A DNA stretch of 47,232 nucleotides, taken from the NCBI RefSeq assembly GCF_001044255.1, contig NZ_JYNX01000021.1:11978-59209 (forward strand), read 5' to 3'. Positions 12,758-33,021 of this stretch are shown one piece after another. The notes beneath the pieces are model-generated. The model was not told the origin of the DNA. It saw only the letters and a program-made list of their open reading frames with translations, and searched no databases. Source of the stretch: Mycolicibacterium chubuense (GTDB lineage Bacteria; Actinomycetota; Actinomycetes; Mycobacteriales; Mycobacteriaceae). A program made the translations under genes and the position numbers. Each line of letters starts with the position of its first letter. Position 1 is the first letter of the stretch.

Positions 12758-14559
12758 GCGGCGGGCCCGGTGATTCCGTGCTTCTGCAGCCACAACTCGA
12801 GCAGCGCGATCTGCCACAGTTCGTTGCCGCGCAGCGGCGTGAGTCTGCCGTTGGGGTCGGCCAGCAGCCGCTCCACAGCCTCGGGGCGGAACAACCCGCG
12901 CTCCTTGGCCGCCGGGGCGTACAGCGCATCGCGGACCAGATCGAGGTAGGGCCCCTCGAGGTGGGTCAGCGCCGGCACCGGGAAGTAACCCTTGGGCCGG
13001 TCGATCACCTCGGCCGGAATCACCTGGCGGGCAGCCTGTTTGAGCACGCCCTTGCCGTCGTGGGCGGTCTTGAGCTGCGGGGGGCAGGTGGCGGCGAGCT
13101 CCACCAGGTCGTGATCGAGGAACGGCACCCGGCCTTCGAGCCCCCAGGCCATCGTCATGTTGTCGACCCGTTTGACCGGGTCGTCGACCAGCATCACGGT
13201 GGTGTCGAGTCGCAGCGCGCGGTCCACCCCGGTCTGCGCGCCGGCCCGGGCGAAGTGCTCGGTGATGAACGCTTCACTCGGATCGTCGGCGGCGAGGTAG
13301 TTCCGCGACACCAGTTCGGCGTAGCCGGCCTGGTCGCGGTCGAAGAACGCGGCGCGGTAGCTGGCGACGGACCCTTCCAGCGACGCCGCGGCGGGCTCGC
13401 CCATCGGGGGATACCAGTGGTAGCCGGCGAACACCTCGTCGGCGCCCTGACCCGACTGGACGACCTTGACGTGCTTGGCCACCTCCTGACTGAGCAGGTA
13501 GAAGGCCACGCAGTCGTGGCTGACCATGGGCTCGCTCATCGCGCCGATCGCGCCGTCGAGGGCGGGCAGCATCCGGGCGGTGTCGATGCGGATCTGGTGA
13601 TGGTCGGTGCCGAACCGCTCGGCGATGATGTCGGAGTACCGGAACTCGTCGCCGGCCACCCCGTTGACCGATTCGAACCCGATGGAGAACGTCTTGAGGC
13701 CGTGCTGGCCGGCTTCGGCGAGCAGGCCGACGATCAGGCTGGAGTCGACGCCGCCGGAGAGCAGGCAGCCGACCGGCACGTCGGCGACCAGCCTGCGCTT
13801 GACCGCCACCCGCAGCGACTCCAGAATCGCGTCCTCCCAGTCCTTTTCGGACCAGTCGGCGCGATCGTCACGGCGGGTGAAGTCGGGCTCCCAGTATGTC
13901 GTGATGGTGTGGCTGCCGTCGGGTTCGATCGCCATCAGCGAGGCCGGTGGCAGCTTGCGGACGCCGCGCAAGATCGTGTGCGGCGAGGGCACGACCGAGT
14001 GGAAGGTCATGTAGTGGTGCAGCGCGACGGGGTCGATCCGGGTGTCGATGTCGCCGCCCGCCAACAGCGCGGGCAACGACGATGCGAACCGGATCCGGTC
14101 GGCGGTCTCGGACAGGTACAGCGGCTTGATGCCGAGGCGATCGCGCCCGAGGAGTACCCGGCCGCTGTCGCGCTCGACGATCGCAAACGCGAACATGCCC
14201 TTGAGGCGGTCGACGAAGCGGTCACCCCATCGGTGGTAGGCCTTGATCAGGACCTCGGTGTCGCTGTGGGAGAAGAAGCGGTAGCCGTGGCCCGACAATT
14301 CGTCGCGCAGCTGTTCGTAGTTGTAGATGCAGCCGTTCCAGGCGATCGACAGCCCCAGTTCGGCGTCCACCATCGGCTGTGCGCCGGCCTCGGAGAGATC
14401 GATGATTTTGAGCCGCCGGTGGCCGAGAGCGACGCGGCCCTGAGACCACACCCCCGCCGCATCGGGGCCGCGAGGCACCATGACCTCGGCCATCGCGGTG
14501 ACGGCTGGCACGTCCGGGCTTTTTCCGTCGAGGCGTACCTCGCCGGTGGCTCCACACAC
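12754..14559 (-). CDS. asnO: N-acetylglutaminylglutamine amidotransferase (asparagine-synthetase-like)
   Basis: Converts N-acetylglutaminylglutamine to its amide (NAGGN) using glutamine and ATP. The N-terminal class II glutaminase domain begins with the nucleophile Cys2 (MCGATGEV) and contains RGPDAAGVW, GHRRLKIIDLSEAG and WNGCIYNY. The synthetase domain carries the PP-loop LLSGGVDSSLIVGLL near residue 260 and VVQSGQGADEVFAGYHW. The 601-residue length is near that of AsnB; pairing with ngg identifies it as the NAGGN enzyme rather than an asparagine synthetase. The start codon is GTG, with a TAGGGT hexamer 7 bases upstream and no ribosome binding site, suggesting leaderless transcription. The gene order asnO-ngg is that of Sinorhizobium. 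Confidence 0.9.
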   Translation of the reverse strand: MCGATGEVRLDGKSPDVPAVTAMAEVMVPRGPDAAGVWSQGRVALGHRRLKIIDLSEAGAQPMVDAELGLSIAWNGCIYNYEQLRDELSGHGYRFFSHSDTEVLIKAYHRWGDRFVDRLKGMFAFAIVERDSGRVLLGRDRLGIKPLYLSETADRIRFASSLPALLAGGDIDTRIDPVALHHYMTFHSVVPSPHTILRGVRKLPPASLMAIEPDGSHTITTYWEPDFTRRDDRADWSEKDWEDAILESLRVAVKRRLVADVPVGCLLSGGVDSSLIVGLLAEAGQHGLKTFSIGFESVNGVAGDEFRYSDIIAERFGTDHHQIRIDTARMLPALDGAIGAMSEPMVSHDCVAFYLLSQEVAKHVKVVQSGQGADEVFAGYHWYPPMGEPAAASLEGSVASYRAAFFDRDQAGYAELVSRNYLAADDPSEAFITEHFARAGAQTGVDRALRLDTTVMLVDDPVKRVDNMTMAWGLEGRVPFLDHDLVELAATCPPQLKTAHDGKGVLKQAARQVIPAEVIDRPKGYFPVPALTHLEGPYLDLVRDALYAPAAKERGLFRPEAVERLLADPNGRLTPLRGNELWQIALLELWLQKHGITGPAA

Positions 14560-14700: not shown

Positions 14701-16272
14701 TCAGGAGACCCCTCGCAGCTCGTCGTCCGAGAGCGTGACCTGCTTGATCGGGCCGGTGAACCAGTTCTTCACCGACACGTGCCAGTAGATGTAGAGCAGG
14801 ATCAGCACGCCGCCGACCAGCAGCGGGGTGTAGTTGACGAACTTCCATTCGAAGCTGGGGTCCCACGGTGCGCCGCCGATCGACGTCGGGAACATCGCGA
14901 TGATCGACGTCACGATGATCTCGATCAGGGCCAGCGGTGCCATCCACCGGTGGTGCCCGCGAAGGTTCCACCGGCCCAGCGGGAACGAGTCGCCGGCCTT
15001 CCACCGGAAGTAGATCGGCACCGCGAAGCACAGGTACAGGCCGACCACGCCGATCGAGACGACCGCGAAGAACGCGACGGGAACGGGCGCGCCGTTGATG
15101 TCCACCTCGACCAAGGCGGGCAGCGTGATGATCGCCGCGATGGTCGCGGTGACCATCACCGCGTTGGCCGGCACCCGTTTCGCGCTGAGCTTCGACCACA
15201 GCTGATGGCCGGGCACCGCGCGGTCACGGCTGAACGCGAACAGCATGCGCGACGCACTGGTCTGGCACGCGGTGGTGCAGAACAGCTGGCCGGCGGTGGA
15301 GACGAGCAGCACGATGCCGACCCACTTGGAGTCCATCGCCTGGGTGAAGATCGTGGCGACGGCACCACCGCCGGCGGTCACGCCGTCCACGTCCTGGACG
15401 GCGAACAGGAAGGTCAGCAGCAGGATCCAGCCGCCGATGGCGGAGTAGAGGATCGAGCGCCAGATGCCTTTGGCGGCGCCGTCGGCGGCGCTCTTGGTCT
15501 CTTCGGACAGGTGCGCCGATGCGTCGTACCCGGTGATCGTGTACTGCGTCAGGATCGCCGACATCGGGAGGACGAACAGCAGGAACGTCAGGCCCGACGT
15601 GGAACCGCCGAAGAAGCCCGTGTTGTTGACGGTGGTGGCGAACACCGTGGAGAAGCTGGCGTGCTGTTCGGGGATCAGCCACAGAATGGCGACGACCGCC
15701 AGGGCCCCGGCCACGTGCCACCACACCGAGATGTTGTTGATGACGGCGAGCAGGTGCGACGAGAAGATGTTGATCGTCGCCACGACGACCAGGATGACCA
15801 GGAACATGATGAAGGTGCGGGTCAGGCTGTAGCCGGCCAGCCAGGACTCGCTGAAGGTGCCCAGGGTCAGGTCCAGGAACGTCGCACTGCCGTAGGCCAC
15901 CGACGCCAGGATGGCGATCAGCCCGATCAGGTTCAGCCAGCCGGTATAGAAACCCGCCTTGGGGCCGCCCAGTTTGGCTGCCCACCAATAGATCCCGCCC
16001 GAGGTGGGATAGGCGGACACCAGCTCGGACATGCACAGCCCGATGAGAAGGATGAAGACCGACACGATCGGCCAGCCCCATGCGATGGCGGCCGGACCGC
16101 CGTTGTTCCAGCCCAGGCCGAACGACGTGAAGCAGCCGGCCAGGATCGAGATGATCGAGAACGAGATCGCGAAGTTGCTGAATCCCGACCACGACCGCGA
16201 CAGTTCCTGGGTGTAGCCCAGGCTCGCGAGGTGCCTCTCGTCGTCGTCTAGGTGTTCGTGGCCCTCGGGCAC
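14701..16272 (-). CDS. APC-family amino acid/amine permease
   Basis: Integral membrane transporter of the APC superfamily, GABA/choline (ACT)-like branch, about 523 residues with roughly twelve hydrophobic segments. The start of the core, SGFSNFAISFSIISILAGC, and the conserved PTSGGIYWWAAKLGGPKAGF region are typical of the group, as are YDASAHLSEETKSA and WGWPIVSVFIL. The GTG at 16272 is selected because an ideal AGGAGG lies 6 bases upstream; a more upstream ATG at 16326 would precede this site. It is divergent from a gamma-glutamylating glutamine synthetase and an amine-catabolic operon, so an amine such as ethanolamine is the likely cargo. The substrate is inferred from context only. Confidence 0.85.
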   Translation of the reverse strand: MPEGHEHLDDDERHLASLGYTQELSRSWSGFSNFAISFSIISILAGCFTSFGLGWNNGGPAAIAWGWPIVSVFILLIGLCMSELVSAYPTSGGIYWWAAKLGGPKAGFYTGWLNLIGLIAILASVAYGSATFLDLTLGTFSESWLAGYSLTRTFIMFLVILVVVATINIFSSHLLAVINNISVWWHVAGALAVVAILWLIPEQHASFSTVFATTVNNTGFFGGSTSGLTFLLFVLPMSAILTQYTITGYDASAHLSEETKSAADGAAKGIWRSILYSAIGGWILLLTFLFAVQDVDGVTAGGGAVATIFTQAMDSKWVGIVLLVSTAGQLFCTTACQTSASRMLFAFSRDRAVPGHQLWSKLSAKRVPANAVMVTATIAAIITLPALVEVDINGAPVPVAFFAVVSIGVVGLYLCFAVPIYFRWKAGDSFPLGRWNLRGHHRWMAPLALIEIIVTSIIAMFPTSIGGAPWDPSFEWKFVNYTPLLVGGVLILLYIYWHVSVKNWFTGPIKQVTLSDDELRGVS

Positions 16273-16278
16273 GGGAGA

Positions 16279-16284
16279 CCTCCT
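16279..16284 (-). promoter_or_regulatory. Ribosome binding site AGGAGG fixing the permease start
   Basis: A consensus AGGAGG on the minus strand ends 6 bases before the GTG at 16272. It decides the start in favour of GTG and is stronger than most sites in this window. Confidence 0.75.
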
Positions 16285-16331
16285 GTGTGTGGAAAACAGC
16301 GCGACGGCCGGCGCCGGGCACCACAAGGGAG

Positions 16332-16345
16332 AATAGATCGCTATT
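16332..16345. promoter_or_regulatory. AT-rich dyad in the permease/glnA4 divergent region
   Basis: AATAG (16332-16336) and CTATT (16341-16345) form a 5-base inverted repeat around ATCG in the only AT-rich patch of the 162-base divergent region. It may be part of a promoter or operator; no regulator can be assigned. Confidence 0.3.
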
Positions 16346-16434
16346 GGTCTGGCGTCCTACCTTTGAACGTGGCAGTTTGGTGCGGGTGTGGGACGCCGGC
16401 GCACGACAACGACCGCGGGGAGAGTAGGACACTG

Positions 16435-17799
16435 ATGGGCACACGAGGCATGCTGTCGCGATCTGAGCTGGAAAAGCTGGTCGAGGCGGGGGACATCGAC
16501 ACGGTGATCGTCGCGTTCTGCGACATGCAGGGCCGACTGACCGGCAAGCGCCTCTCGGCGCGGCTGTTCGTCGAGGACACCGCGGACCACGGCGCGGAAG
16601 CCTGCAACTACCTGCTGGCCGTCGACGTCGACAACAACACCGTCGACGGGTACGCGATCTCCAGCTGGGAGACCGGCTACGGCGACATGGTGATGACCCC
16701 CGATTTCGCCACGCTGCGGCTGGTGCCGTGGCTGCCCGGCACCGCGCTGGTGATGGCCGACCTCTCGTGGACTGACGGCCGGCCGGTGACCCAGGCGCCG
16801 CGCAGCATCCTCAACCGTCAGATCGACCGGCTCTCCGAGCGTGGCCTGGTGCCGTACGCGGCCACCGAACTCGAGTTCATGGTCTTCGACGACACCTTTC
16901 GCGGGGCTTGGGCGGCCGGCTACAAGGGCCTCACCCCAGCCACCGACTACAACATCGACTACGCGATGCTGGCCTCCACCCGGATGGAGCCGCTGCTGCG
17001 CGACATCCGGCTCGGCATGGACGGCGCGGGCATGTACTGCGAAGGCGTCAAGGGGGAGTGCAACCTCGGCCAGCAGGAGATCGGCTTCCGCTATGACCAT
17101 GCGCGCACCACGTGTGACAACCACACGATTTATCGCAATGGGGCCAAGGAGATCGCCGATCAGCACGGCAAGAGCCTGACGTTCATGGCGAAATTCGATG
17201 AGCGCGAGGGCAACAGCTGCCACATCCACATCTCGCTGCGCGGCGAGGACGGCAGCGCGGTCTTCGCCGACCCCGACGCCGAGGACGGGATGACGCCGCT
17301 GTTCCGCAGCTTCATCGCCGGCCAGCTCGCAACCATGCGGGAGCTGAGCCTGTGTTACGCGCCGAACGTCAACTCCTACAAGCGGTTCGCCGAGGGCAGC
17401 TTCGCCCCGACGGCGATCGCGTGGGGCTTCGACAACCGCACGTGTTCGCTGCGGGTGGTCGGCCATGGCGCGGCGATGCGCATGGAGAACCGGGCGCCCG
17501 GCGGCGACGTCAACCAGTACCTCGCCGTGTCGGCGCTGATCGCGGGCGGCCTGTACGGCATCGAGAACGAGCTCGAGCTGCCCGAAGCGTTGTCCGGCAA
17601 CGCCTACACCAGTGGTGCCGAGCGGCTGCCGACGACGCTGGCCGAGGCCGTCGAGCTGTTCGACAACTCGAAGGTGGCGCGGGACGCCTTCGGCGACGAC
17701 GTCGTCGACCACTACCTCAACTACGCGCGCGTGGAGCTCAAGGCCTTCAACGCCGCGGTGACGGATTGGGAAAGGATGCGCGGCTTTGAGCGACTGTGA
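16435..17799 (+). CDS. glnA4: Glutamine-synthetase-family gamma-glutamyl-amine ligase (GlnA4-type)
   Basis: ATP-dependent ligase of the glutamine synthetase fold, 454 residues, matching the size of M. tuberculosis GlnA4 (Rv2860c). Key blocks include ATELEFMVF (metal glutamates), GECNLGQQEIGFRYDHA, EGNSCHIHISL, NSYKRFA and MRMENRAPGGDVNQYLAVSALIAGG. The related Streptomyces GlnA4 makes gamma-glutamylethanolamide rather than glutamine, and the neighbours here (hydrolase, aldehyde dehydrogenase, SDR, permease) support an amine substrate. The ATG follows a GGGGAGAG ribosome binding site. The next gene starts inside its last codons, so the four-enzyme set is translationally coupled. Whether ethanolamine or another amine is used is inferred. 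Confidence 0.88.
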   Translation: MGTRGMLSRSELEKLVEAGDIDTVIVAFCDMQGRLTGKRLSARLFVEDTADHGAEACNYLLAVDVDNNTVDGYAISSWETGYGDMVMTPDFATLRLVPWLPGTALVMADLSWTDGRPVTQAPRSILNRQIDRLSERGLVPYAATELEFMVFDDTFRGAWAAGYKGLTPATDYNIDYAMLASTRMEPLLRDIRLGMDGAGMYCEGVKGECNLGQQEIGFRYDHARTTCDNHTIYRNGAKEIADQHGKSLTFMAKFDEREGNSCHIHISLRGEDGSAVFADPDAEDGMTPLFRSFIAGQLATMRELSLCYAPNVNSYKRFAEGSFAPTAIAWGFDNRTCSLRVVGHGAAMRMENRAPGGDVNQYLAVSALIAGGLYGIENELELPEALSGNAYTSGAERLPTTLAEAVELFDNSKVARDAFGDDVVDHYLNYARVELKAFNAAVTDWERMRGFERL

Positions 17800-18562
17800 G
17801 GCCGTTCGCCCGGTGATCGGGCTGACCACCTACCTGCAGCAGGCACAGACCGGTGTCTGGGACGTGCGGGCCAGCTTCCTGCCTGCGATCTACTTCGAGG
17901 GCATCGGCCTGGCCGGCGGCATCTCGGTGCTGCTGCCGCCGCAGCCGGTGGACGACGCCATCGCCGACCGCGTCCTCGACGGACTCGACGGACTGATCAT
18001 CACCGGCGGGCGCGACGTCGACCCGGCCGCCTATGGCGACGAGCGTCATCCCGCCACCGACGAGCCGGTCGCCGACAGCCGCACCCGTGACGCCTTCGAG
18101 TTGGCGCTGCTGCAGGCGGCGCTGCGCCGCGGCGTCCCGGTGCTCGGCATCTGCCGGGGCGCGCAGGTGCTCAACGTCGCGCTCGGCGGCACGCTGCACC
18201 AGCATCTGCCCGATGTCGTCGGGCACACTCGCCACCAGCAGGGCAACGCGGTGTTCTCCACCTCGACGATCACCACCGTCCCCGGCACCCGGGTGGCGGA
18301 GATGGTCGGACCGGACACCGAGGCGCAGTGCTACCACCACCAGGCCATCGACCGGCTCGGCGACGGTCTGATCGTCAGCGCCTCCGACAGCGACGGAGTG
18401 ATCGAGGCCGTCGAGGTCGACCGCGACCGCCACCCCGGCCGGTGGGTGGTTGCCGTGCAATGGCATCCCGAGGAGCGGCTGGACGACCTGCGGGTGTTCG
18501 CGGGTCTGGTCGGCGCCGCAGCAGCACACGCATCCCAGAAAGCCCAGAAGGTGAGCGTATGA
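17786..18562 (+). CDS. Class I glutamine-amidotransferase-like gamma-glutamyl hydrolase (PuuD/Rv2859c-like)
   Basis: Stand-alone class I glutamine amidotransferase fold, peptidase C26-like, 258 residues. The catalytic cysteine is Cys123 in VLGICRGAQVLN; the His-Glu pair is in VAVQWHPEE near residue 225. An early GGRDVDPAAYGDE segment is typical of PuuD and related gamma-glutamyl-GABA hydrolases. By context it should release glutamate from a gamma-glutamyl product of the GlnA4/aldehyde-dehydrogenase route. The TTG at 17786 overlaps the glnA4 end by 14 bases; a GTG at 17813 is an alternative start. The stop overlaps the next ATG (ATGA). Confidence 0.85.
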   Translation: MSDCEAVRPVIGLTTYLQQAQTGVWDVRASFLPAIYFEGIGLAGGISVLLPPQPVDDAIADRVLDGLDGLIITGGRDVDPAAYGDERHPATDEPVADSRTRDAFELALLQAALRRGVPVLGICRGAQVLNVALGGTLHQHLPDVVGHTRHQQGNAVFSTSTITTVPGTRVAEMVGPDTEAQCYHHQAIDRLGDGLIVSASDSDGVIEAVEVDRDRHPGRWVVAVQWHPEERLDDLRVFAGLVGAAAAHASQKAQKVSV

Positions 18563-19929
18563 CGACGTCCAGCGATGTGATCAACCCCGCGACCGAGGAA
18601 CTGCTGCGCACCGTCGAGCAGACCGACGAGGCCGGGGTCGACGACGCGGTGGCCCGCGCCCGGGCGGCGCAGCGGCAGTGGGCCCGGCAGGCCCCGGCGG
18701 AGCGGGCGGCGGCGCTGCGCGCCTTCGCCGCGGTGGTCGACGCCCACGTCGAGGAGCTGGCCCAGCTCGAGGTCGCCAACTCCGGGCACCCGATCGGCAA
18801 CGCCCGCTGGGAGGCGGGCCACGTCCGCGACGTGCTGCAGTACTACTCGGCGAGCCCGGAACGGTTGTCCGGCAAGCAGATTCCGGTCGCCGGCGGCCTG
18901 GACGTCACCTTCAACGAACCGCTCGGCGTGGTCGGCGTCATCACCCCGTGGAATTTCCCGATGACCATCGCGTCGTGGGGGTTCGCACCCGCGCTGGCCG
19001 CCGGGAACGCGGTGCTGGTCAAGCCGGCGGAGTGGACCCCGCTGACCACGATCCGGCTCGGCGAACTCGCCGTCGAGGCCGGCCTGCCGGCCGATCTGTT
19101 CCAGGTCGTGCCCGGTCGGGGCTCGGTGGTCGGGGAGCGCTTCGTCAGCCATCCCGACGTCCGCAAGATCGTGTTCACCGGTTCCACCGAGGTCGGCACC
19201 CGGGTGATGGCCGGCGCGGCGCAGCAGGTCAAGCGTGTCACGCTCGAACTGGGCGGCAAGAGCGCCAACATCGTGTTCGACGACTGCGACCTCGAGCGCG
19301 CCGCCGCCACCGCGCCCTACGGCGTGTTCGACAACTCGGGTCAGGACTGCTGCGCCCGCAGCCGGATCCTGGTGCAGCGCAATGTCTTCGATCGGTTCAT
19401 GGAACTGTTCGAGCCTGCCGTCAAGGGCGTCGTGGTGGGCGATCCGCGCGCCGAGGGCACCGAGATGGGTCCGCTCGTGTCCAAGGCGCACTGGGAGTCG
19501 GTGGCCGGTTATGTCCCCGACGGGGCGCCGGTGGCGTTCCGCGGCGATGCGCCCACGGGCCCCGGTTACTGGTTCCCGCCCACGGTGCTGACGCCGCCGC
19601 GCGACGACCGCACCGTCACCGAGGAGATCTTCGGTCCTGTCGTGACGGTGCTGCCGTTCGACGACGAGGCGGACGCGATCGCGTTGGCCAACGACACCCC
19701 CTACGGACTGTCCGGCTCGATCTGGACCGAGAACGTGTCCCGCGCGCTGCGGGTCTCGCGCGCCGTGGAATCGGGCAACCTGTCGGTCAACTCGCACTCG
19801 TCGGTGCGCTACAGCACGCCGTTCGGCGGCTTCAAGCAATCCGGTCTGGGCCGCGAACTCGGCCCCGACGCCCCGCTGTCGTTCACCGAGACCAAAAACG
19901 TCTTCATAGCTGTTCAGGAGGAGCACTGA
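18559..19929 (+). CDS. aldC: NAD(P)-dependent aldehyde dehydrogenase (AldC-like)
   Basis: Oxidises an aldehyde, by context a gamma-glutamyl-amino-aldehyde, to the acid. The 456-residue length matches M. tuberculosis AldC (Rv2858c). Motifs: PWNFPM, KPAEWTPLTT, FTGSTEVGTRVM, the general base Glu230 in LELGGKSANIVF, and the catalytic Cys264 in FDNSGQDCCARSR (followed by a second cysteine). Also EEIFGPVV and TPFGGFKQSGLGRELG. It starts within the previous stop (ATGA) and its own stop shares one base with the next ATG (TGATG), so the operon is tightly coupled. Nothing is missing from the active site. Confidence 0.92.
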   Translation: MTTSSDVINPATEELLRTVEQTDEAGVDDAVARARAAQRQWARQAPAERAAALRAFAAVVDAHVEELAQLEVANSGHPIGNARWEAGHVRDVLQYYSASPERLSGKQIPVAGGLDVTFNEPLGVVGVITPWNFPMTIASWGFAPALAAGNAVLVKPAEWTPLTTIRLGELAVEAGLPADLFQVVPGRGSVVGERFVSHPDVRKIVFTGSTEVGTRVMAGAAQQVKRVTLELGGKSANIVFDDCDLERAAATAPYGVFDNSGQDCCARSRILVQRNVFDRFMELFEPAVKGVVVGDPRAEGTEMGPLVSKAHWESVAGYVPDGAPVAFRGDAPTGPGYWFPPTVLTPPRDDRTVTEEIFGPVVTVLPFDDEADAIALANDTPYGLSGSIWTENVSRALRVSRAVESGNLSVNSHSSVRYSTPFGGFKQSGLGRELGPDAPLSFTETKNVFIAVQEEH

Positions 19930-20702
19930 TGGATTTGACCCAGCGTCTGGCGGGCAAGGTCGCCGTGATCACCGGCGGCGCCAGCGGCATCGGGCTGGCA
20001 ACCGCCAAACGGATGCAGGCCGAAGGCGCCATCGTGGTCATCGGTGATCTCGACGAGGTCACCGGTAAATCCGTCGCCGACGACATGAACGTGACGTTCG
20101 TCCAGGTCGACGTCTCGGATCAGGTCGCGGTGGACCGCTTGTTCGACACGGCCGTCGAGGTGCACGGCGGGGTCGACATCGCGTTCAACAACGCCGGTAT
20201 CAGCCCGCCCGAAGACGACCTGATCGAGAACACCGGCATCGACGCGTGGCAGCGGGTGCAGGACATCAACCTCAAGTCCGTGTTCTTCTGCTGCAAAGCC
20301 GCACTGCGGCACATGGTTCCGGCGCAGAAGGGCTCGATCGTCAACACCGCGTCGTTCGTCGCGGTGATGGGTTCGGCCACGTCGCAGATCTCCTACACCG
20401 CCTCGAAGGGCGGCGTGCTGGCGATGTCGCGCGAACTGGGCGTGCAGTACGCCCGGCAGGGCATCCGCGTCAACGCGCTGTGCCCCGGACCGGTCAACAC
20501 CCCGCTGCTGCAGGAGCTGTTCGCCAAGGATCCCGAACGTGCCGCGCGCCGGCTGGTGCACGTGCCGGTCGGCCGGTTCGCCGAACCCGAAGAGCTCGCC
20601 GCCGCGGTGGCGTTTCTCGCCAGCGACGACGCGTCGTTCATCACGGCCTCGTCGTTCCTGGTCGACGGCGGGATCAGCGGCCACTACGTGACGCCGCTGT
20701 AA
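19929..20702 (+). CDS. Short-chain dehydrogenase/reductase (Rv2857c-like)
   Basis: NAD(P)-dependent SDR, 257 residues. The cofactor motif TGGASGIG is at residues 16-23, NNAGISPP near 88, and the catalytic Tyr156-x-x-x-Lys160 lies in SYTASKGG. The acid after the second strand (GDLDEV) suggests NAD rather than NADP. It is the fourth enzyme of the coupled set and could oxidise the alcohol group of a gamma-glutamyl-amino-alcohol to the aldehyde used by the preceding enzyme; this is inference. The FadR-type regulator begins 2 bases after its stop. Confidence 0.9.
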   Translation: MDLTQRLAGKVAVITGGASGIGLATAKRMQAEGAIVVIGDLDEVTGKSVADDMNVTFVQVDVSDQVAVDRLFDTAVEVHGGVDIAFNNAGISPPEDDLIENTGIDAWQRVQDINLKSVFFCCKAALRHMVPAQKGSIVNTASFVAVMGSATSQISYTASKGGVLAMSRELGVQYARQGIRVNALCPGPVNTPLLQELFAKDPERAARRLVHVPVGRFAEPEELAAAVAFLASDDASFITASSFLVDGGISGHYVTPL

Positions 20703-20704
20703 GC

Positions 20705-21469
20705 ATGTCGGCCGACCCGGGCGCCGCCGACGAGCGCTTGCGCGAGGAGCGGACAGCTCATGAAGAGCAGACCGCCAGCGAGGCGCTGCTGCGTCCGGTG
20801 CGGCCGCTCAACGCCTTCGAGGACACCGTCGAGCGGCTGCTGCAGACGATTCGCCTGGGGGTGCTCTCCCCGGGCGAATCCCTGCCGCCGGAGCGGGAAC
20901 TCGCCGCCCGGCTGGGCGTCAGCCGCGACACCGTGCGGGAGGCGATCAAGTCGCTCGCCGACGCCGGCTACCTGGTGTCGCGCCGCGGCCGCTACGGCGG
21001 CACCTTCCTGGCCGACGCGTTACCGGCACCCCGACCGGACGAGGCCCGCTTCAGCGAAGCCGAGATCACCGATGCGATGCGGCTGCGGGAGATCCTCGAG
21101 GTGGGGGCGGCCCGGATGGCGGCGGGGCGGACGCTGACCGCCGCCGACCGGGAGGCGCTGTGGAGCCGACTCGCCGATGTCCGCGGTGCCGCGCCGGAGG
21201 ACTACCGGCGGCTGGACTCGCGGCTGCACCTGGCGATCGCCGAGGCCGCCGGCGTGCCCTCGCTGGTCCCGCTCGTCGCGCAGAACCGGATGCGGCTCAA
21301 CGAACTCCTCGACTGCATCCCGCTGCTGGCGCGCAACATCGCCCACTCCGACGAGCAGCACGAGGCGATCGTGCTGGCGATCCTGGCCGGGGACGCAAAG
21401 CGCGCCGCGCAGACGATGACGGCCCACGTCTGGGGCTCGGCCGCCCTTCTTCACGGATTCCTGGACTGA
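20705..21469 (+). CDS. FadR-type GntR regulator with FCD domain
   Basis: Transcription factor of 254 residues. The winged-helix N-terminal domain spans residues 35-105 (TIRLGVLSPGESLPPERELAARLGVSRDTVREAIKSL, then RRGRYGGTF in the wing). The C-terminal all-helical FCD domain spans about 120-250 with metal or ligand residues typical of the group: DSRLHLAIAEAAG, NEL, and HSDEQHEAIV. FCD domains usually bind small organic acids. Only 2 bases separate it from the SDR stop, so it is cotranscribed with the four enzymes and probably controls them. Confidence 0.9.
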   Translation: MSADPGAADERLREERTAHEEQTASEALLRPVRPLNAFEDTVERLLQTIRLGVLSPGESLPPERELAARLGVSRDTVREAIKSLADAGYLVSRRGRYGGTFLADALPAPRPDEARFSEAEITDAMRLREILEVGAARMAAGRTLTAADREALWSRLADVRGAAPEDYRRLDSRLHLAIAEAAGVPSLVPLVAQNRMRLNELLDCIPLLARNIAHSDEQHEAIVLAILAGDAKRAAQTMTAHVWGSAALLHGFLD

Positions 21470-21476
21470 CGCCGGT

Positions 21477-21482
21477 TAGATT
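21477..21482 (+). promoter_or_regulatory. -10-like hexamer TAGATT for the ArsR gene
   Basis: TAGATT ends 7 bases before the GTG at 21490. There is no ribosome binding site in the 20-base gap, so this looks like a leaderless promoter internal to the regulator cluster. Confidence 0.55.
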
Positions 21483-21489
21483 AACTTCC

Positions 21490-21810
21490 GTGGAGGATGC
21501 CGAACTGGTCGAACGCGCGTCGTCGGCGCTGGCCGAGGTCGACACCTCCGGCTGGGCGCAGCGCTTCGACCTGGTCTCGGATCCGCACCGCCTGGAGATC
21601 CTGCTCTGCCTGCACCGCTCACCCGGCATCTCCGTCAGCGATCTGGCGGCCGCGCTCGGCCGCTCCGAGAACGCGGTGTCCCAGGCGCTGCGGGTGCTCC
21701 GCCAGCAGGGCTGGGTGAGCAACACCCGCGAGGGCCGCTCGGTGCGCTATCGCCTCGACGACGACACCGTCCACGATCTGCTGCACTGGATCGGGGCCCG
21801 GCACGGGTGA
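21490..21810 (+). CDS. ArsR-family winged-helix regulator
   Basis: Small DNA-binding protein, 106 residues. The winged-helix core is FDLVSDPHRLEILLCLHRSPGISVSDLAAALGRSENAVSQALRVLRQQGWVSNTREGRSVRYRLDDD, a standard ArsR/SmtB layout. The CxxC-type metal site of ArsR is absent; a single cysteine (LCLH) and a terminal His-containing tail DLLHWIGARHG are seen, so a metal-sensing role is uncertain. GTG start directly after a -10 hexamer. Its stop overlaps the start of the next regulator (GTGA). Confidence 0.88.
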   Translation: MEDAELVERASSALAEVDTSGWAQRFDLVSDPHRLEILLCLHRSPGISVSDLAAALGRSENAVSQALRVLRQQGWVSNTREGRSVRYRLDDDTVHDLLHWIGARHG

Positions 21811-22604
21811 GTTCCGGTGACGAGGTGACGCGGGTGCTGAGCATCGGCGAGCCGCCGCTGGCGCCGGGTCCGCGACTCGACGGCGGGTCCGACCGGCCGG
21901 TGCACGCCCGCATCGCGGCGTGGCTGCAGGGCCTGATCGACTCCGGCGGGCTGGTGCCCGGCGACAAGTTGCCGCCCGAGGTCGAGATCGCCACCGCACT
22001 CGGCTGCAGCCGGATGACGTTGCGCCAGGCGCTCGGCGCGCTGGAGCACAAGGGCCTGATCGACCGGCGCCGCGGCCGGTTCGGCGGAAACTTCGTCTCC
22101 ACACCGCGCTTCGAGTTCGACCACGCCAGCCTGCCCGGCTTCACAGAGCAGATGCGTCGTTTCGAGGTGGAGCCCGGCGCTGAGGTTCTCAGAGCGCACA
22201 CCGGCCGCCCCGATGCCGAGGTCAGCGGGGCGTTGGGGCTGCGGCGCACCGACGAGGTGCATCAGATCATGCGCGGGCGTACCGCCAACGGCGAACCGAT
22301 CGTGCTCGAGGAGGCCTACCTGCCCGCGGCGGTGTTCCCCGACCTGCTCTCCAGGGACCTGGGCGGATCGCTGTACGCGCTGATGCGGGAGTACGGCCAC
22401 GGTCCGTCGTCGGCCGACGAGCGGATCGAGGCCACCCCGGCGACCGTCGAGCAGGCCCGTATCCTCGGTGTGGAGCCGGGCAGTCCGCTGCTGCTGATCG
22501 TGCGAACGTCGTTCGCCGACAACGGGGTTGCGGTGGAGTTCTCCCGCGACTACCACCGGTCCGACCGCACCGCGATCCGCGTCCGCTCCCGTGCCGACGG
22601 GTGA
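21807..22604 (+). CDS. HutC/DasR-like GntR regulator with UTRA domain
   Basis: Transcription factor of 265 residues. The winged-helix domain covers about 30-95 (HARIAAWLQGLIDSGGLVPGDKLPPE..., CSRMTLRQALGALEHKGLI, RRRGRFGGNFV). The C-terminal UTRA ligand domain includes LRAHTGRPDAE, VLEEAYLPAAVFPDLL and the terminal VEFSRDYHRSDR typical of HutC-type proteins. Start GTG overlaps the ArsR stop. A GTCTAGAC palindrome, the core recognised by this subfamily (DasR, NagR/YvoA), lies 16 bases after its stop and in front of the kinase gene, so it probably represses the kinase/dehydrogenase arm. Confidence 0.9.
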   Translation: MSSGDEVTRVLSIGEPPLAPGPRLDGGSDRPVHARIAAWLQGLIDSGGLVPGDKLPPEVEIATALGCSRMTLRQALGALEHKGLIDRRRGRFGGNFVSTPRFEFDHASLPGFTEQMRRFEVEPGAEVLRAHTGRPDAEVSGALGLRRTDEVHQIMRGRTANGEPIVLEEAYLPAAVFPDLLSRDLGGSLYALMREYGHGPSSADERIEATPATVEQARILGVEPGSPLLLIVRTSFADNGVAVEFSRDYHRSDRTAIRVRSRADG

Positions 22605-22619
22605 TCCGGGGCGGTTGAA

Positions 22620-22627
22620 GTCTAGAC
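22620..22627. promoter_or_regulatory. GTCTAGAC palindrome, candidate GntR/HutC operator
   Basis: Perfect 8-base palindrome between the GntR stop (22604) and the kinase promoter. HutC-subfamily regulators such as DasR and NagR bind sites with a GTCTAGAC core. It starts 26 bases upstream of the -10 hexamer, within the -35 region, so binding should block initiation. Confidence 0.6.
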
Positions 22628-22645
22628 CTTTGAGGTGGCCCCGTT

Positions 22646-22651
22646 TACAGT
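22646..22651 (+). promoter_or_regulatory. -10-like hexamer TACAGT for the kinase-dehydrogenase operon
   Basis: TACAGT ends 6 bases before the ATG at 22658, with no ribosome binding site, so the message would be leaderless. The GTCTAGAC operator lies just upstream. Confidence 0.55.
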
Positions 22652-22657
22652 GAAGCG

Positions 22658-23590
22658 ATGTCGTCACCGCTCACCGACGATCACCTCGACGGGCTGTTCG
22701 AGCAGATTCCGTTGCTGGCCGGTCGTGCGCGGACGCTGGAGGAACTGTCGGGCGGTCTGACCAACCGCAACGTGAAGATCACCACCGCCGATGCGGTCTA
22801 CGTCGCCCGCTGCGTCGACACCGAGCGCAACCTTCTCGGCATCGACCGCGACCACGAGCATGCGAACAGTGTCGCCGCCCATCGCGCCGGCGTCGGCGCA
22901 CCCGTGCTGGACTACCGGCCCGACCTCGGCGTGCTGCTGCTCGGCTATCTCGAGGGAAAAACGCTGGAGAACAACGACTTCCAGCGCGACGGTGTGATCG
23001 CCAGGGCGGCCGCGGCGGTGCGCACGCTGCACCGCGGGCCCCGCTTCGTCAACCGGTTCGACATGTTCGAACGTCAGCCCGCGTACCTGCAGACCTGCCG
23101 CAGCCGGGGCTTCGCGATCCCAGCGGACTACCACGACCACGCCGAGGCCTTCGCCGCCGCGCGACGGGTGCTGACGGCCACCGACGACGCCGAGGGCTCG
23201 CTGGTGCCGTGCAACAACGACCTCCTCGCGGGCAACTTCATCGAGCACGGCGACCGGATGTACCTGATCGACTACGAGTACTCGGGCAACAACGACCCCT
23301 GTTTCGAGCTCGGCAACATCTGGAGCGAATGCGGGCTGAGCCTCGACCAGCTCGACGAACTCGTCACGAGCTATCACGGCCGCCGCCTGCGACACAAGAC
23401 CGCCCGGGCCCATCTGCAGGGCATCGTCGCCAAGTACGGCTGGACGCTGTGGGGCTGCATCCAAAATGGTTCCAGCGCCTTGGAATTCGACTTCTGGGCC
23501 TGGGCGATGGAGCGCTACGAGGCCGCGGTCGCCGAATTCCGCCACCCCGGCTATCCCCGGCTCCTCGACGACGTCGCGGCGCCCGACTGA
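22658..23590 (+). CDS. Choline/ethanolamine-kinase-like phosphotransferase (APH fold)
   Basis: Protein-kinase-like small-molecule kinase, 310 residues. N-lobe: ELSGGLTNRNVKITTADAVYVAR, a glycine-rich loop typical of choline kinases and LicA. C-lobe: the catalytic loop reads PCNNDLLAGNFI with Asp188 and Asn193, and the metal-binding Asp205 lies in LIDYEYSGNNDPCFELGN, a form characteristic of the choline/ethanolamine kinase group rather than of aminoglycoside kinases. Context (amine permease, GlnA4, N-methyl amino acid dehydrogenase) supports an amino alcohol substrate. First gene of a two-gene unit; the dehydrogenase starts 17 bases downstream. Confidence 0.82.
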   Translation: MSSPLTDDHLDGLFEQIPLLAGRARTLEELSGGLTNRNVKITTADAVYVARCVDTERNLLGIDRDHEHANSVAAHRAGVGAPVLDYRPDLGVLLLGYLEGKTLENNDFQRDGVIARAAAAVRTLHRGPRFVNRFDMFERQPAYLQTCRSRGFAIPADYHDHAEAFAAARRVLTATDDAEGSLVPCNNDLLAGNFIEHGDRMYLIDYEYSGNNDPCFELGNIWSECGLSLDQLDELVTSYHGRRLRHKTARAHLQGIVAKYGWTLWGCIQNGSSALEFDFWAWAMERYEAAVAEFRHPGYPRLLDDVAAPD

Positions 23591-23607
23591 AGGAGACACC
23601 ACCGCTC

Positions 23608-26070
23608 ATGGCCTCTGCCGCACCGCTGCCGTCGCGCACCCACGCCGTCATCATCGGCGGGGGAGTGATCGGCACCAGCGTCGCCTATCACCTGACCCGC
23701 CTGGGCATCACCGACGTGGTGCTCCTCGAGCAGGGCCAGCTCTCCAGCGGAACCACCTGGCACGCAGCCGGACTCGTCGGGCAGTTGCGCGCATCGGAAG
23801 GCATGACCCGGCTCGTGCAGTACTCGACCACGCTGTACGCCGAGCTGGAGGCCGAAACCGGGCTCTCGGCGGGATACAAGCAGTGCGGGGGCGTCACCGT
23901 CGCGCGCACCGAGGACCGCATGGAGCAACTGCGCCGCACCGCCGCGAACGCGGCCGCGTTCGATCTCGAGTGCGAACTGCTGAGTCCCGCAGAGGCTCTC
24001 GAGCACTACCCGGTGATGCGGACCGACGACCTCGTCGGCGCGATCTGGCTGCCCGCCGACGGCAAGGCCAATCCGACCGACCTGACCTACGCGCTGGCCA
24101 AGGGGGCGCGGATGCGCGGCGCCCGGATCGTCGAGAAGACCCGGGTGCTCGACGTGCTCACCACCGACGGGGCGGTGCGGGGCGTCCGCACCGACGCCGG
24201 CGACATCGAGGCCGAGATCGTCGTCAACTGCGCCGGGCAGTGGGCCAAACAGGTGGCCGCGATGGTCGGCGCGAACGTGCCGCTGCACTCCGCCGAGCAC
24301 TTCTACGTCGTCTCCGAGCCTATCGCCGGAGTGCACCCCGACCTGCCGATCCTGCGCGACCCCGACGGCTACACCTACTTCAAGGAAGAGGTCGGCGGCC
24401 TGGTGATCGGCGGGTTCGAGCCCGAGGCGAAGCCGTGGGTGTCACCGGATGCGATCCCGTACCCGTTCGAGTTCCAGCTCCTCGACGAGGACTGGGAGCA
24501 CTTCGAGATCCTGATGAACAGTGCGCTGCTGCGCATCCCGGCGCTGGAGAGCACCGGCATCAAGAAGTTCTACAACGGTCCGGAGAGCTTCACGCCCGAC
24601 AACCAGTTCATCCTCGGCGAGGCGCCCGAATGCCGGAACTTCTTCGTCGGCGCCGGCTTCAACTCCGTCGGCATCGCCACCGCCGGCGGCGCGGGCCGGG
24701 CGCTGGCCGAGTGGATCGTCGAGGGAGCGCCGACGACCGACCTGACCGGGGTGGACATCCGCCGGTTCGCGCCGTTCAACGGCAACAACCGGTGGCTGCA
24801 CGACAGGGTCGCCGAGGTCTTGGGCATCCACTACGAGATCCCCTGGCCGAACCGAGAGATGACGACCGCGCGACCGTTCCGCCGCTCGCCGGTGCACCAC
24901 CTTCTGGACGCCGCCGGCGCCAACTTCGGCAGCAAGATGGGCTGGGAGCGCGCGAACTTCTTCGCCCCCCAGGGCCAGGCCCCGGTGATCGAGTACACCT
25001 GGGGCACACCGAACTGGCTGCCGTGGTCGGCCGCCGAGCAGCGCAGCACGCGCACCGGTGTGACGGTGTTCGACCAGACGTCGTTCTCCAAGTACGTCAT
25101 CGTCGGGCGTGACGCCGAGGCCGCCCTGCAGTGGCTGTGCACCGCCGACGTGGCCGTCCCGGTGGGGCGGTCGGTGTACACCGGCATGCTCAACGCGCGC
25201 GGCACCTACGAAGCCGACGTCACCGTGACCCGCACCGCCGCCGACGAATTCCTGATGGTCAGCAGCGCGGCCACCACCGAGCGCGACAAGGACCACATCC
25301 GGCGCCACCTGCCCGTCGGGGCGGACGCCCACGTCGTCGACGTCACGTCGTCGTACGCGGTGTTCGGTGTCATGGGCCCACGCTCGCGCGACCTGTTGTC
25401 GGTACTCACCGACGCCGACCTCTCCGATGCCGCGTTCCCGTTCGGCACCAGCCGGGTGATCCCGCTCGGGTACGCGACGGTGCGCGCCACCCGCATCACC
25501 TACGTCGGCGAACTCGGCTGGGAGCTCTACGTTCCGGCCGAGTTCGCGGTCGGGGTGTACGAGGACCTGATGGCGGCCGGCGAGCCGCTGGGCGTGGCGC
25601 GCGGCGGGTACTACGCCATCGAGTCGTTGCGACTGGAGAAGGGCTACCGCGCGTTCGGGCGCGAACTCTCGCCGAGTGAGAACCCCGTCGAGGCGGGGCT
25701 GCTGTTCGCCTGCAAGCTGGGCACCGACATCGGCTTCCTCGGCCGCGACGCCGTCGAACGCGCCCGGGCGCAGGGTCCGCGCCGCAAGCTGGTCGGCTTC
25801 CGTGTCGAGACTCCGGGCCCGATGCTCTGGGGCGGGGAACTGATTCTGCGCGACGGCGCGGTCGCGGGGCAGGCGACGTCGGCGGCCTGGGGGGAGACGA
25901 CCGGTGCGTGCGTCGGGCTGGCGTATCTGCGGGCGGGCGACGGTGCGGTCATCGATGGGGACTGGGTGCGCAGCGGCGACTACCAGGTCAGCGTCGGCGG
26001 TGTGCTGCACCCGATCTCGGTGTCGCTGCGCCCGCTCTACGACCCGGCGGGGGAACGGGTGCGGGGCTGA
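23608..26070 (+). CDS. Dimethylglycine/sarcosine dehydrogenase-like FAD and GcvT-domain enzyme
   Basis: Large two-part flavoenzyme, 820 residues. Residues 1-430 form a DAO-type FAD domain with the nucleotide motif VIIGGGVIGTSVAYHL (17-22) and the SSGTTWHAAGL segment in which His52 corresponds to the residue that binds FAD covalently in dimethylglycine and sarcosine dehydrogenases. Residues about 430-810 form FAO_M and GcvT domains (FDQTSFSKYVI, TYEADVTVTR, YVGELGWELYVP, IESLRLEKGYRAFGRELSPSENP), which bind folate and capture the released one-carbon unit as methylene-tetrahydrofolate. The likely substrate is an N-methylated glycine. ATG at 23608 follows AGGAG at 23591. Exact substrate is unknown. 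Confidence 0.87.
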   Translation: MASAAPLPSRTHAVIIGGGVIGTSVAYHLTRLGITDVVLLEQGQLSSGTTWHAAGLVGQLRASEGMTRLVQYSTTLYAELEAETGLSAGYKQCGGVTVARTEDRMEQLRRTAANAAAFDLECELLSPAEALEHYPVMRTDDLVGAIWLPADGKANPTDLTYALAKGARMRGARIVEKTRVLDVLTTDGAVRGVRTDAGDIEAEIVVNCAGQWAKQVAAMVGANVPLHSAEHFYVVSEPIAGVHPDLPILRDPDGYTYFKEEVGGLVIGGFEPEAKPWVSPDAIPYPFEFQLLDEDWEHFEILMNSALLRIPALESTGIKKFYNGPESFTPDNQFILGEAPECRNFFVGAGFNSVGIATAGGAGRALAEWIVEGAPTTDLTGVDIRRFAPFNGNNRWLHDRVAEVLGIHYEIPWPNREMTTARPFRRSPVHHLLDAAGANFGSKMGWERANFFAPQGQAPVIEYTWGTPNWLPWSAAEQRSTRTGVTVFDQTSFSKYVIVGRDAEAALQWLCTADVAVPVGRSVYTGMLNARGTYEADVTVTRTAADEFLMVSSAATTERDKDHIRRHLPVGADAHVVDVTSSYAVFGVMGPRSRDLLSVLTDADLSDAAFPFGTSRVIPLGYATVRATRITYVGELGWELYVPAEFAVGVYEDLMAAGEPLGVARGGYYAIESLRLEKGYRAFGRELSPSENPVEAGLLFACKLGTDIGFLGRDAVERARAQGPRRKLVGFRVETPGPMLWGGELILRDGAVAGQATSAAWGETTGACVGLAYLRAGDGAVIDGDWVRSGDYQVSVGGVLHPISVSLRPLYDPAGERVRG

Positions 26071-26170: not shown

Positions 26171-26857
26171 ATGCACATGAGCGACGGCATCGTCAACGCC
26201 CCGGTGTCGGTCCTGTTCGCGGCGATCGCGCTGACCGCCCTGGGACTGTGCGCGTGGCGTGCGCGCGAGGAACTCGACGAGCGCACGGTGCCGCTGGCGG
26301 GACTGGTCGCCGCGTTCATCTTCGCCGTGCAGATGGTGAACTTCCCGATCCTGCCCGGGGTCAGCGGTCACCTGCTCGGCGGTGCGCTCGCGGCCATCCT
26401 GGTCGGGCCGTTCACCGGTGCGCTGTGCGTCGCGATCGTGCTCGTGGTGCAGTCGCTGCTGTTCGCCGACGGCGGGGTCACCGCGCTGGGCACCAACATC
26501 ACCAACATGGCGTTGATCGGCGTGGCCGCCGGATACGGCACCGCCCTGCTGAGCTACCGGATGGTGCGCCGCATCCGCGGTGAGGTGTCAGTGCCCGCGG
26601 TCGGCGTCGTCGCCTTCTGCTCGGCGGTGGTGGGCACCGTCTGCGCCGCGATGGGCTTCGTGCTGGAGTACTCCCTCGGCGGGGCGGGCTCCTCCTCGCT
26701 GGGCACGGTGGCCGCCTACATGTTCGGCACCCACGTGCTGATCGGCATCGGTGAGGGCATCATCACCGCGCTCACCGTGGTGGCTGTCGTGCGGGCGCGA
26801 CCCGACCTGGTGTACCTGCTGCGGACCAACCGCATCGCGGCCGAGGTGCCGGCATGA
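26171..26857 (+). CDS. cbiM: ECF cobalt transporter substrate-binding membrane protein CbiM
   Basis: Membrane component that binds Co(II) in the energy-coupling factor transporter CbiMNQO. From ATG 26171 the protein starts MHMSDGIVNAPVS; in CbiM/NikM proteins the free N terminus and His2 coordinate the metal, so this start suits the family. About seven hydrophobic segments follow, with NFPILPGVSGHLLGGALAAILVGPF and FADGGVTALGTNITNMALIG characteristic of CbiM, including the conserved His and Asn region. An in-frame GTG at 26150, exactly at the predicted transcription start, would add seven residues and bury His2. It ends by overlapping cbiN (ATGA). Product about 228 residues. Confidence 0.9.
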   Translation: MHMSDGIVNAPVSVLFAAIALTALGLCAWRAREELDERTVPLAGLVAAFIFAVQMVNFPILPGVSGHLLGGALAAILVGPFTGALCVAIVLVVQSLLFADGGVTALGTNITNMALIGVAAGYGTALLSYRMVRRIRGEVSVPAVGVVAFCSAVVGTVCAAMGFVLEYSLGGAGSSSLGTVAAYMFGTHVLIGIGEGIITALTVVAVVRARPDLVYLLRTNRIAAEVPA

Positions 26858-27216
26858 CGGCCCGCTGGCGGTTCTGGGTCGGCTTCGCGGTGGTGACGCT
26901 GCTGATCGCCGGCGGGTTGTCCTACCTGGCCAGCTCGAGCCCCGACGGCTTGGACTCCGCCACCCTGCAGGGCTGCCAGGTGATCGAGACCCCGCAGGGC
27001 GAACAGTTGCAGGGTGACTGCATCGCCCAGCATGCCGACTCCCACGCGCTGGCGCACTCGCCACTGGCCGACTACACCGTGGGCGGGCGCGACGGCACCA
27101 ACGGCGTGGCCGGCATCGCCGGAGTGGCCGTGACGGTCCTGGTCGCCTTCGGTGCGTTCTGGTTGATCGCGCGCTCCCGCGGCGCGTCGGCATCAGCACC
27201 CGTCTCCGACGACTGA
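26854..27216 (+). CDS. cbiN: ECF cobalt transporter accessory protein CbiN (PDGLE domain)
   Basis: Small membrane protein, 120 residues, with one N-terminal and one C-terminal transmembrane helix (FWVGFAVVTLLIAGGLSYLA and GIAGVAVTVLVAFGAFWLIA). The first extracytoplasmic residues are SSSPDGLDSA, the PDGL(E) signature that names the family. CbiN helps load metal into CbiM. The loop is longer than in minimal CbiN and contains two cysteines (QGCQV, GDCIAQH) and histidines, which might contact metal. Start overlaps cbiM stop by four bases; cbiQ follows after 14 bases. Confidence 0.88.
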   Translation: MTARWRFWVGFAVVTLLIAGGLSYLASSSPDGLDSATLQGCQVIETPQGEQLQGDCIAQHADSHALAHSPLADYTVGGRDGTNGVAGIAGVAVTVLVAFGAFWLIARSRGASASAPVSDD

Positions 27217-27230
27217 CGCGGCCTGACGAC

Positions 27231-31335: not shown

Positions 31336-31342
31336 GACAGCC

Positions 31343-31348
31343 ACCTTA
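31343..31348 (-). promoter_or_regulatory. -10-like hexamer TAAGGT for the hydrolase-mtr operon
   Basis: On the minus strand TAAGGT ends 7 bases before the GTG at 31335, again without a ribosome binding site. It decides the start chosen for the hydrolase. Confidence 0.45.
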
Positions 31349-31369
31349 GTGGGCGGGGTGGTCGGACGG

Positions 31370-31396
31370 TTGCGGGCGAGCGCGGCGGGATAACCT
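31370..31396 (+). promoter_or_regulatory. Candidate promoter of mqo
   Basis: TTGCGG (31370-31375) and TAACCT (31391-31396) are separated by 15 bases, slightly short. This would give a leader of about 50 bases ahead of mqo, in the 116-base divergent region. Confidence 0.35.
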
Positions 31397-31451
31397 GAAC
31401 ACAAGTAAGCCGTGAGCAACGGGATGTGACCACGAAGGGCCGATCGAGTTG

Positions 31452-33008: not shown

Positions 33009-33021
33009 CGGTGGTCAGCCG

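Follow-up and report, generated by a model that had tools for sequence, protein, structure and literature searches.

The 47,232-nucleotide stretch analyzed here (the window; positions 11,978 to 59,209 of contig NZ_JYNX01000021.1) comes from the soil mycobacterium Mycolicibacterium chubuense, whose genome assembly (G000) comprises 5.9 Mb in 96 contigs. Between positions 14701 and 26070, it carries a gene set for gamma-glutamylation of an amino alcohol, headed by a GlnA4-type ligase gene, together with genes for a choline-kinase-like enzyme and for a flavoprotein resembling dimethylglycine dehydrogenase (DMGDH) and sarcosine dehydrogenase (SARDH). All genes named in a preliminary description of this DNA are intact open reading frames at the positions assigned to them, and its gene calls and overlaps proved correct. 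On the plus strand, the gene for the predicted GlnA4-type gamma-glutamylethanolamide synthetase (16435 to 17799; PF00120, Gln-synt_C, 332 bits) overlaps by 14 bases with a TTG-started gene for a C26-type gamma-glutamyl amide hydrolase (17786 to 18562; PF07722, Peptidase_C26, 224 bits), which is joined through an ATGA overlap to an aldehyde dehydrogenase (ALDH) gene (18559 to 19929; PF00171, Aldedh, 523 bits) and this, through a TGATG junction, to a gene for a short-chain dehydrogenase/reductase (SDR) alcohol dehydrogenase (19929 to 20702). The SDR scores above the gathering score of adh_short_C2 and reaches 504 bits (cut-off 404) against NF004713, a family that carries the name 3-oxoacyl-ACP reductase. 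Farther downstream on the same strand lie the genes for the choline/ethanolamine-kinase-family enzyme (22658 to 23590) and the DMGDH/SARDH-like flavoprotein with a folate domain (23608 to 26070). Divergent from glnA4, an APC-superfamily permease gene (14701 to 16326, minus strand) encodes a protein with a score of 164 bits, above the gathering score, against PF13520 (AA_permease_2) and with scores below the cut-offs of TIGR00907 (275 versus 598 bits) and of the ethanolamine permease family TIGR00908 (22 versus 382 bits); it is likely an importer of amino alcohols. The same gene order, with 93 to 100% protein identity to the window, is present in Mycolicibacterium chlorophenolicum (L009).

The GlnA-like protein has a glutamine synthetase (GS) catalytic domain in which the metal, glutamate, and ATP residues are represented by ELEF, CHIHIS, and related motifs. 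Among solved structures, its best relatives are 11zs and 5dm3, the latter of which we take to be the Chromohalobacter salexigens enzyme. It has lost D50, since the DGSS motif of the region with the ammonia-site Asp is absent, and it carries Phe (F323) at the position of the E327 flap (residue roles as given in PMC6529630). Both the ammonia-site Asp and Glu are kept in the genome's own GlnA copies (L001 and L002). The Phe at the flap position is shared by L004 and L005, so this residue alone is not diagnostic of GlnA4. We have high confidence that the GlnA4 arm would act on ethanolamine.

The remaining enzymes of this arm have motifs that are presumably catalytic, i.e., GICRGAQ at 121 and QWHPEE at 225 in the C26 hydrolase, GQDCCA at 261 in the ALDH, and SYTASKGG (YxxxK) at 155 in the SDR. 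The SDR is predicted to oxidize gamma-glutamylethanolamide, the ALDH to oxidize gamma-glutamyl-aminoacetaldehyde, and the C26 enzyme to be a gamma-glutamylglycine hydrolase; among the 25 NCBIfam families listed of a total of 43, the ALDH reached the cut-off of none. Thus, ligase, two oxidation steps, and hydrolysis are encoded by four abutting genes (16435 to 20702), and the gene set of the gamma-glutamylation route is complete, as the preliminary description had proposed. The arm is not new. In Streptomyces coelicolor, GlnA4 is reported to be specific for ethanolamine, and the cluster SCO1610-SCO1615 includes genes for SDR, ALDH, GlnA4, a regulator, and an amidotransferase-type hydrolase, with a permease only outside S. 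coelicolor (PMC6529630). The gene set, the proposed steps, and the loss of the ammonia-site residues are all like those in the window, while the regulators are arranged differently and the legend to the cluster figure names neither a kinase nor a DMGDH-like gene (PMC6529630). A cognate operon of Phaeobacter, described as closely related to genes shown to be functional in C. salexigens and Agrobacterium, encodes proteins that increase on phosphorylethanolamine (PMC10132767). The operons of these three genera share with the window a GS-like ligase, two dehydrogenases, and a gamma-glutamylglycine hydrolase but have a TRAP transporter and, among the genes shown, neither a kinase nor a flavin demethylase (PMC10132767). 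We observed a similar operon in Paracoccus, which differs from the window by encoding an iron-type alcohol dehydrogenase and an N-formylglutamate-type hydrolase. Mycobacterium tuberculosis and Kineococcus radiotolerans share the gene arrangement around glnA4 (PMC2667176). In the window's family, GlnA4 (E ≤ 1e-110) was found in 37 of 251 genomes, and 20 of these are among the 21 genomes of the genus.

The kinase scores above the gathering scores of Choline_kinase (PF01633) and APH and has the fold and the catalytic D/N/D residues of the choline/ethanolamine kinase family; at position 186, 36 of 44 sequences have Asn and the other 8 have His. It does not qualify as the guanitoxin kinase GntI (NF041256, 159 bits versus a cut-off of 357), and we predict that it is an (N-methyl)ethanolamine kinase. 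The DMGDH-like protein has DAO, FAO_M, GCV_T, and GCV_T_C domains above gathering scores, matches the DMGDH structure 4p9s with an E-value of 1e-129, and belongs to the DMGDH/SARDH family by this architecture. H52, H231, Y257, and D537 are conserved in 38 of 38 sequences, and we take H52 to be the FAD-linking His and D537 to be the folate-site Asp. The enzyme thus shares with DMGDH/oxidase and SARDH the domain order, the motif of the presumed FAD-linking His, and the folate-binding half, while it differs from them in that its partner gene encodes a choline-type kinase and in that the kinase-adjacent proteins group apart from 16 other paralogues, which were picked by hand from the match positions listed. 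Position 61 is Arg in 39 of 40 kinase-adjacent proteins and Asn in 16 of 16 of these paralogues. A structure model of the DMGDH-like protein was of middling confidence (pLDDT, 74.6; 11 sequences) and was not used. We predict that the enzyme is an N-demethylase of phospho-(N-methyl)ethanolamines.

To what extent the two arms belong together was assessed in a class-wide sample of 296 genomes using E-value thresholds of 1e-40 for the kinase, 1e-130 for GlnA4, and 1e-135 for the DMGDH-like protein; related genomes were counted separately, and the DMGDH-like search scored three candidates per genome, so that its misses are not firm. The kinase was present in 54, GlnA4 in 143, and a DMGDH-like match in 59 of the 296 genomes. 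GlnA4 was found in 52 of the 54 kinase genomes versus 91 of the 242 without the kinase (Fisher P = 6e-17), and a DMGDH-like match in 49 of 54 versus 10 of 242 (Fisher P = 5e-40), with the proviso for both P values that related genomes are not independent. Three of the five kinase genomes without a DMGDH-like match (G262, G302, and G449) have such a gene beside the kinase gene as seen by tblastn (L171, L176, and L179). The kinase and DMGDH-like genes are neighbors (gap of at most 5.4 kb) in at least 41 of the 54 genomes, and within 500 bases of each other in 35 of these. The kinase and GlnA4 genes are at most 7 kb apart in 19 of the 52 genomes that have both (about 0.25 expected at random), and these represent nine families and varied gene orders. 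Kinase regions were recovered from 40 of the 54 kinase genomes, several of them cut by contig ends; 34 contain a DMGDH-like gene, 26 a permease gene, 15 a GlnA4 gene, and 13 the full soluble route, in several orders. Among 80 named kinase loci, which are the best 80 of 214 by kinase similarity and were not de-duplicated, the corresponding numbers are 79 for DMGDH-like, 11 for GlnA4, and 10 for the full soluble route. We regard it as near certain that the genes and their linkage are real and beyond chance, and the connection of the GlnA4 set to the kinase/DMGDH arm has strong comparative-genomic backing. We also note that seven loci of family f27 (L154, L156, L158, and L161-L164), from genomes of 1.2 to 2.2 Mb, have neighboring kinase and DMGDH-like genes, with GlnA4 elsewhere in the genome.

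In the family sample of 251 genomes, the kinase (E ≤ 1e-30) was found in six, all of the genus, and the same six have a DMGDH-like orthologue (at least 81% identity) and GlnA4. The kinase and GlnA4 genes lie together in three of the six (G000, G215, and G232) and apart or on different contigs in the other three.

Based on these data, we propose that the locus encodes a module that would break down ethanolamine and its N-methylated forms in two stages, a reading to which we assign a probability of roughly 50%. The permease would import the amino alcohol, and the choline-kinase-like enzyme would phosphorylate it, so that the small cation acquires an acidic handle. N-methyl groups would then be stripped from the phosphorylated tertiary or secondary amine by the DMGDH-like flavoprotein and passed to folate as methylene-tetrahydrofolate. 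Removal of the phosphate may fall to a phosphatase of the haloacid dehalogenase (HAD) or inositol monophosphatase (IMPase) type in genomes that have one, or the phosphate may be passed on to the next substrate molecule, as in the MthK precedent described below. The product of the first stage would be ethanolamine, which would enter the second stage, in which GlnA4 would make gamma-glutamylethanolamide, SDR and ALDH would oxidize it to gamma-glutamylglycine, and the C26 hydrolase would yield glutamate and glycine. In other genomes, serine dehydratase and PurU could dispose of the glycine and one-carbon units; these were recognized in 8 and 2, respectively, of 120 actinobacterial kinase loci. 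Dimethyl- and N-methylethanolamine are the likely substrates, since tertiary or secondary amines are what a flavin enzyme should require; choline would have to undergo another step first. We infer all substrates, the order of steps, and the mode of phosphate release, while gene content, motifs, linkage, and co-occurrence are observed.

The kinase is placed before the demethylase because their genes so often adjoin and because there is a precedent in Eubacterium limosum. In this organism, MthK phosphorylates choline, and MthB accepts phosphocholine but not choline; the authors suggest that the phosphate provides an acidic group, and MthK can also transfer phosphate from the demethylated product to fresh substrate (PMC12155760). 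The MthK/MthB/MthC/MthA system resembles the window in that a choline-kinase-type enzyme primes an amino alcohol for transfer of an N-methyl group to tetrahydrofolate, but it differs in that it uses a cobalamin methyltransferase on a quaternary amine in an anaerobe (PMC12155760). In the window, the corresponding enzyme would be a flavin oxidoreductase that carries a fused folate domain. A scan of ten proteins of the locus, which did not extend to other parts of the genome, found no MttB-superfamily methyltransferase or corrinoid protein. The kinase, which the preliminary description had assigned to a side branch yielding a phospho-amino-alcohol, travels with the demethylase and looks instead like a step of demethylation. 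That phosphorylated amines are the real substrates of the demethylase we judge to be a little under even. The wider proposal, in which aerobic bacteria would use a widespread, cobalamin-independent route to demethylate phosphorylated methylated ethanolamines with the DMGDH-like enzyme and pass the ethanolamine to gamma-glutamylation or an ammonia-lyase, is tentative and falls short of an even chance. If true, it would provide a substrate class for a large clade of DMGDH-like proteins and their partner kinase (54 of 296 class genomes, some of only 1.2 to 2.2 Mb) and would tie one-carbon metabolism to the degradation of methylated head groups of phospholipids, with neither a cobalamin methyltransferase nor a microcompartment involved. 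While the gamma-glutamate half is known from Streptomyces, we found no description of the joined kinase/demethylase half, or of the joined kinase, DMGDH-like, and GlnA4 route, in the open-licence literature; PMC10590968 was considered and set aside since it concerns phosphonates.

The preliminary description had ordered the steps differently, with GlnA4 glutamylating N-methylethanolamine to give sarcosine, from which the DMGDH-like enzyme would make glycine. What the feeder (kinase/DMGDH) arm is paired with in other genomes bears on this. Two kinase genomes lack a GlnA4 match, i.e., G307 (78% complete) and G447 (98% complete), and in G447 genes for EutA-EutB-EutC are beside the DMGDH-like, permease, and kinase genes. 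Apart from G447, EutB was found in just one of the 54 kinase genomes, G290, which has GlnA4. In Shinella sumterensis, one plasmid brings together genes for EutBC, two genes of the kinase type, and a gene that is annotated as histidinol-phosphatase and is similar to the IMPase of Salipiger (41%). Ethanolamine is what these arrangements have in common. Largely on the basis of G447, together with the plasmid clusters, we conclude with moderate confidence that the feeder arm ends in ethanolamine rather than sarcosine. The order through sarcosine, although consistent with the DMGDH/SARDH architecture of the flavoprotein and with the serine dehydratase and PurU genes in some DMGDH-like neighborhoods, which would consume glycine and one-carbon units, leaves unexplained why the kinase, besides the demethylase, is tied to the gene set. 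It also fits poorly with G447, in which EutABC would be incapable of yielding sarcosine, and with the reported ethanolamine specificity of S. coelicolor GlnA4, the main text on which does not mention N-methylethanolamine (PMC6529630). We consider this order unlikely, although it is the alternative that survives best. In the window genome itself, the cobalamin-dependent Eut pathway was not recognized, as there was no match to the Shinella EutB at E ≤ 1e-50.

Several observations weigh against the two-stage module. The kinase and GlnA4 genes are unlinked in 33 of the 52 genomes (10 distant on one contig and 23 on different contigs, some of which are possibly assembly breaks). Many genomes that lack the kinase have GlnA4 (91), and 10 such genomes have a DMGDH-like match. 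Two of the 40 kinase regions (L180 and L181, from G400 and G265) have kinase and permease genes with no DMGDH-like gene nearby, and neither genome gave a DMGDH-like match at E ≤ 1e-135 genome-wide with three candidates scored per genome. The plasmid stretches of Shinella and Arthrobacter sp. U41 have kinase and phosphatase genes but no DMGDH-like gene there. R61 may be an anion-binding residue, but the anion could just as well be a carboxylate, and for this reason a choice between sarcosine and a phospho-amine on the basis of sequence was dropped. Finally, no homologue of the HAD phosphatase of related loci was found in the window genome at E ≤ 1e-25; an own HAD enzyme was accordingly dropped as the candidate for phosphate release, a step to which no gene is assigned there. 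Elsewhere, 24 of the 80 named loci have a HAD phosphatase gene no more than 3.5 kb from the kinase gene, G439 has a homologue (43%) next to its unlinked DMGDH-like gene, and the HAD phosphatase of mycobacterial loci is present in 3 of the 21 genus genomes (G029, G112, and G177).

The frequent lack of linkage between kinase and GlnA4 would also suit independent arms under shared amine regulation, in which GlnA4 serves ethanolamine, the DMGDH-like enzyme acts on dimethylglycine or sarcosine from choline or betaine, and the choline kinase salvages phosphocholine. In its favor, Salipiger and Rhizobium rosettiformans have betaine/proline-type ABC transporter genes next to the kinase/FAD pair. Nevertheless, the almost complete co-occurrence of kinase and GlnA4 (52 of 54) makes independence rather improbable. 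A weaker point is that the nameable, widely recurrent neighbors are those of the core set; unlabeled neighbor clusters, none of which occurs in more than 6 of 57 loci, were left unannotated, and genes for oxidation of choline or betaine were not searched for. Less probable still is that the kinase makes phosphoethanolamine as a store, a detoxification product, or a lyase substrate, separately from demethylation. The Shinella plasmid, with the kinase by an IMPase-like gene and EutBC, and Arthrobacter U41, with the kinase near the GlnA4 block and an IMPase family gene, would fit such a role, but it does not account for the adjacency of kinase and DMGDH-like genes across the class, and no phospho-lyase was found among the ten locus proteins scanned. 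An accidental neighborhood within one lineage, which the patchiness in the window's family (the pair in 6 of 251 genomes) might suggest, is scarcely credible given that the same genes are joined in nine families, with related ones in Salipiger, in differing orders.

Returning to the two-stage module, a plasmid stretch of about 36 kb in Salipiger abyssi carries a near-complete version of it. The stretch includes genes for an IMPase, a betaine-type ABC transporter, a phosphotransferase, an FAD demethylase-like protein, the beta subunit of electron transfer flavoprotein (ETF), and an FAD-binding protein read as ETF alpha, along with genes for FolD, PurU, N-formylglutamate amidohydrolase, a GS-like ligase, ALDH, an iron-type alcohol dehydrogenase, and GlyA, and by genes for serine dehydratase, a HAD hydrolase, a second ABC transporter, a DUF1989/GCV_T protein, a second FAD demethylase-like protein, and a choline/ethanolamine kinase family protein. 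The DUF1989 and GCV_T protein (L182:9316-11682), near the kinase and FAD demethylase-like genes, has what we take to be the make-up of trimethylamine N-oxide demethylase, and the Salipiger cluster may thus contain an N-oxide branch. The Arthrobacter sp. U41 plasmid stretch (L185:3545-13266) contains the GlnA4 block and genes for a choline kinase family protein, an amidase, and an IMPase family protein, with no DMGDH-like gene in the stretch; this composition suggests an amide precursor of ethanolamine. A Paenarthrobacter plasmid (L186) has two copies of a set of genes for a GS-like protein, a class III aminotransferase, and an aldehyde dehydrogenase, together with 5-oxoprolinase genes.

Between the SDR and kinase genes of the window, there are three regulator genes that the preliminary description did not mention, all on the plus strand. 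The first encodes a FadR-type GntR regulator (20705 to 21469; PF00392 and PF07729), a type that also adjoins glnA in other families (e.g., L144, L146, L150, and L152). The second encodes an ArsR/SmtB metalloregulator (21475 to 21810; NF033788, 74 bits versus a cut-off of 55) with a His-rich C-terminus, and the third encodes a UTRA-type GntR regulator (21807 to 22604; PF07702, 137 bits). The UTRA-type regulator is present in 40 of the 80 named kinase loci and in 7 of the 40 class-wide kinase regions, and we infer that it regulates the kinase/DMGDH arm. On the 3' side of the DMGDH-like gene are a CbiM-like cobalt transport gene and then three frames read as CbiN, CbiQ, and CbiO. The arm is thus bracketed by the ArsR gene and a CbiM-led cobalt or nickel transporter (26171 to 28747), with which the ArsR/SmtB protein probably belongs rather than with the amine route; in L025, a NicO nickel transporter gene follows the DMGDH-like gene in place of the CbiM-led transporter.

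Farther downstream (28935 to 35342) are genes for mycothione reductase, malate:quinone oxidoreductase, and a cobaltochelatase-like protein. Together with the GlnA4 block, these genes resemble the order of M. tuberculosis Rv2850c-Rv2860c, so that the kinase arm seems to have been inserted into a mycobacterial region of long standing. On the other side, an operon for the osmolyte N-acetylglutaminylglutamine amide (10961 to 14559, minus strand) adjoins the divergent permease gene; its synthetase (TIGR03103, 873 bits) and amidotransferase (TIGR03104, 1026 bits) both score above the cut-offs.

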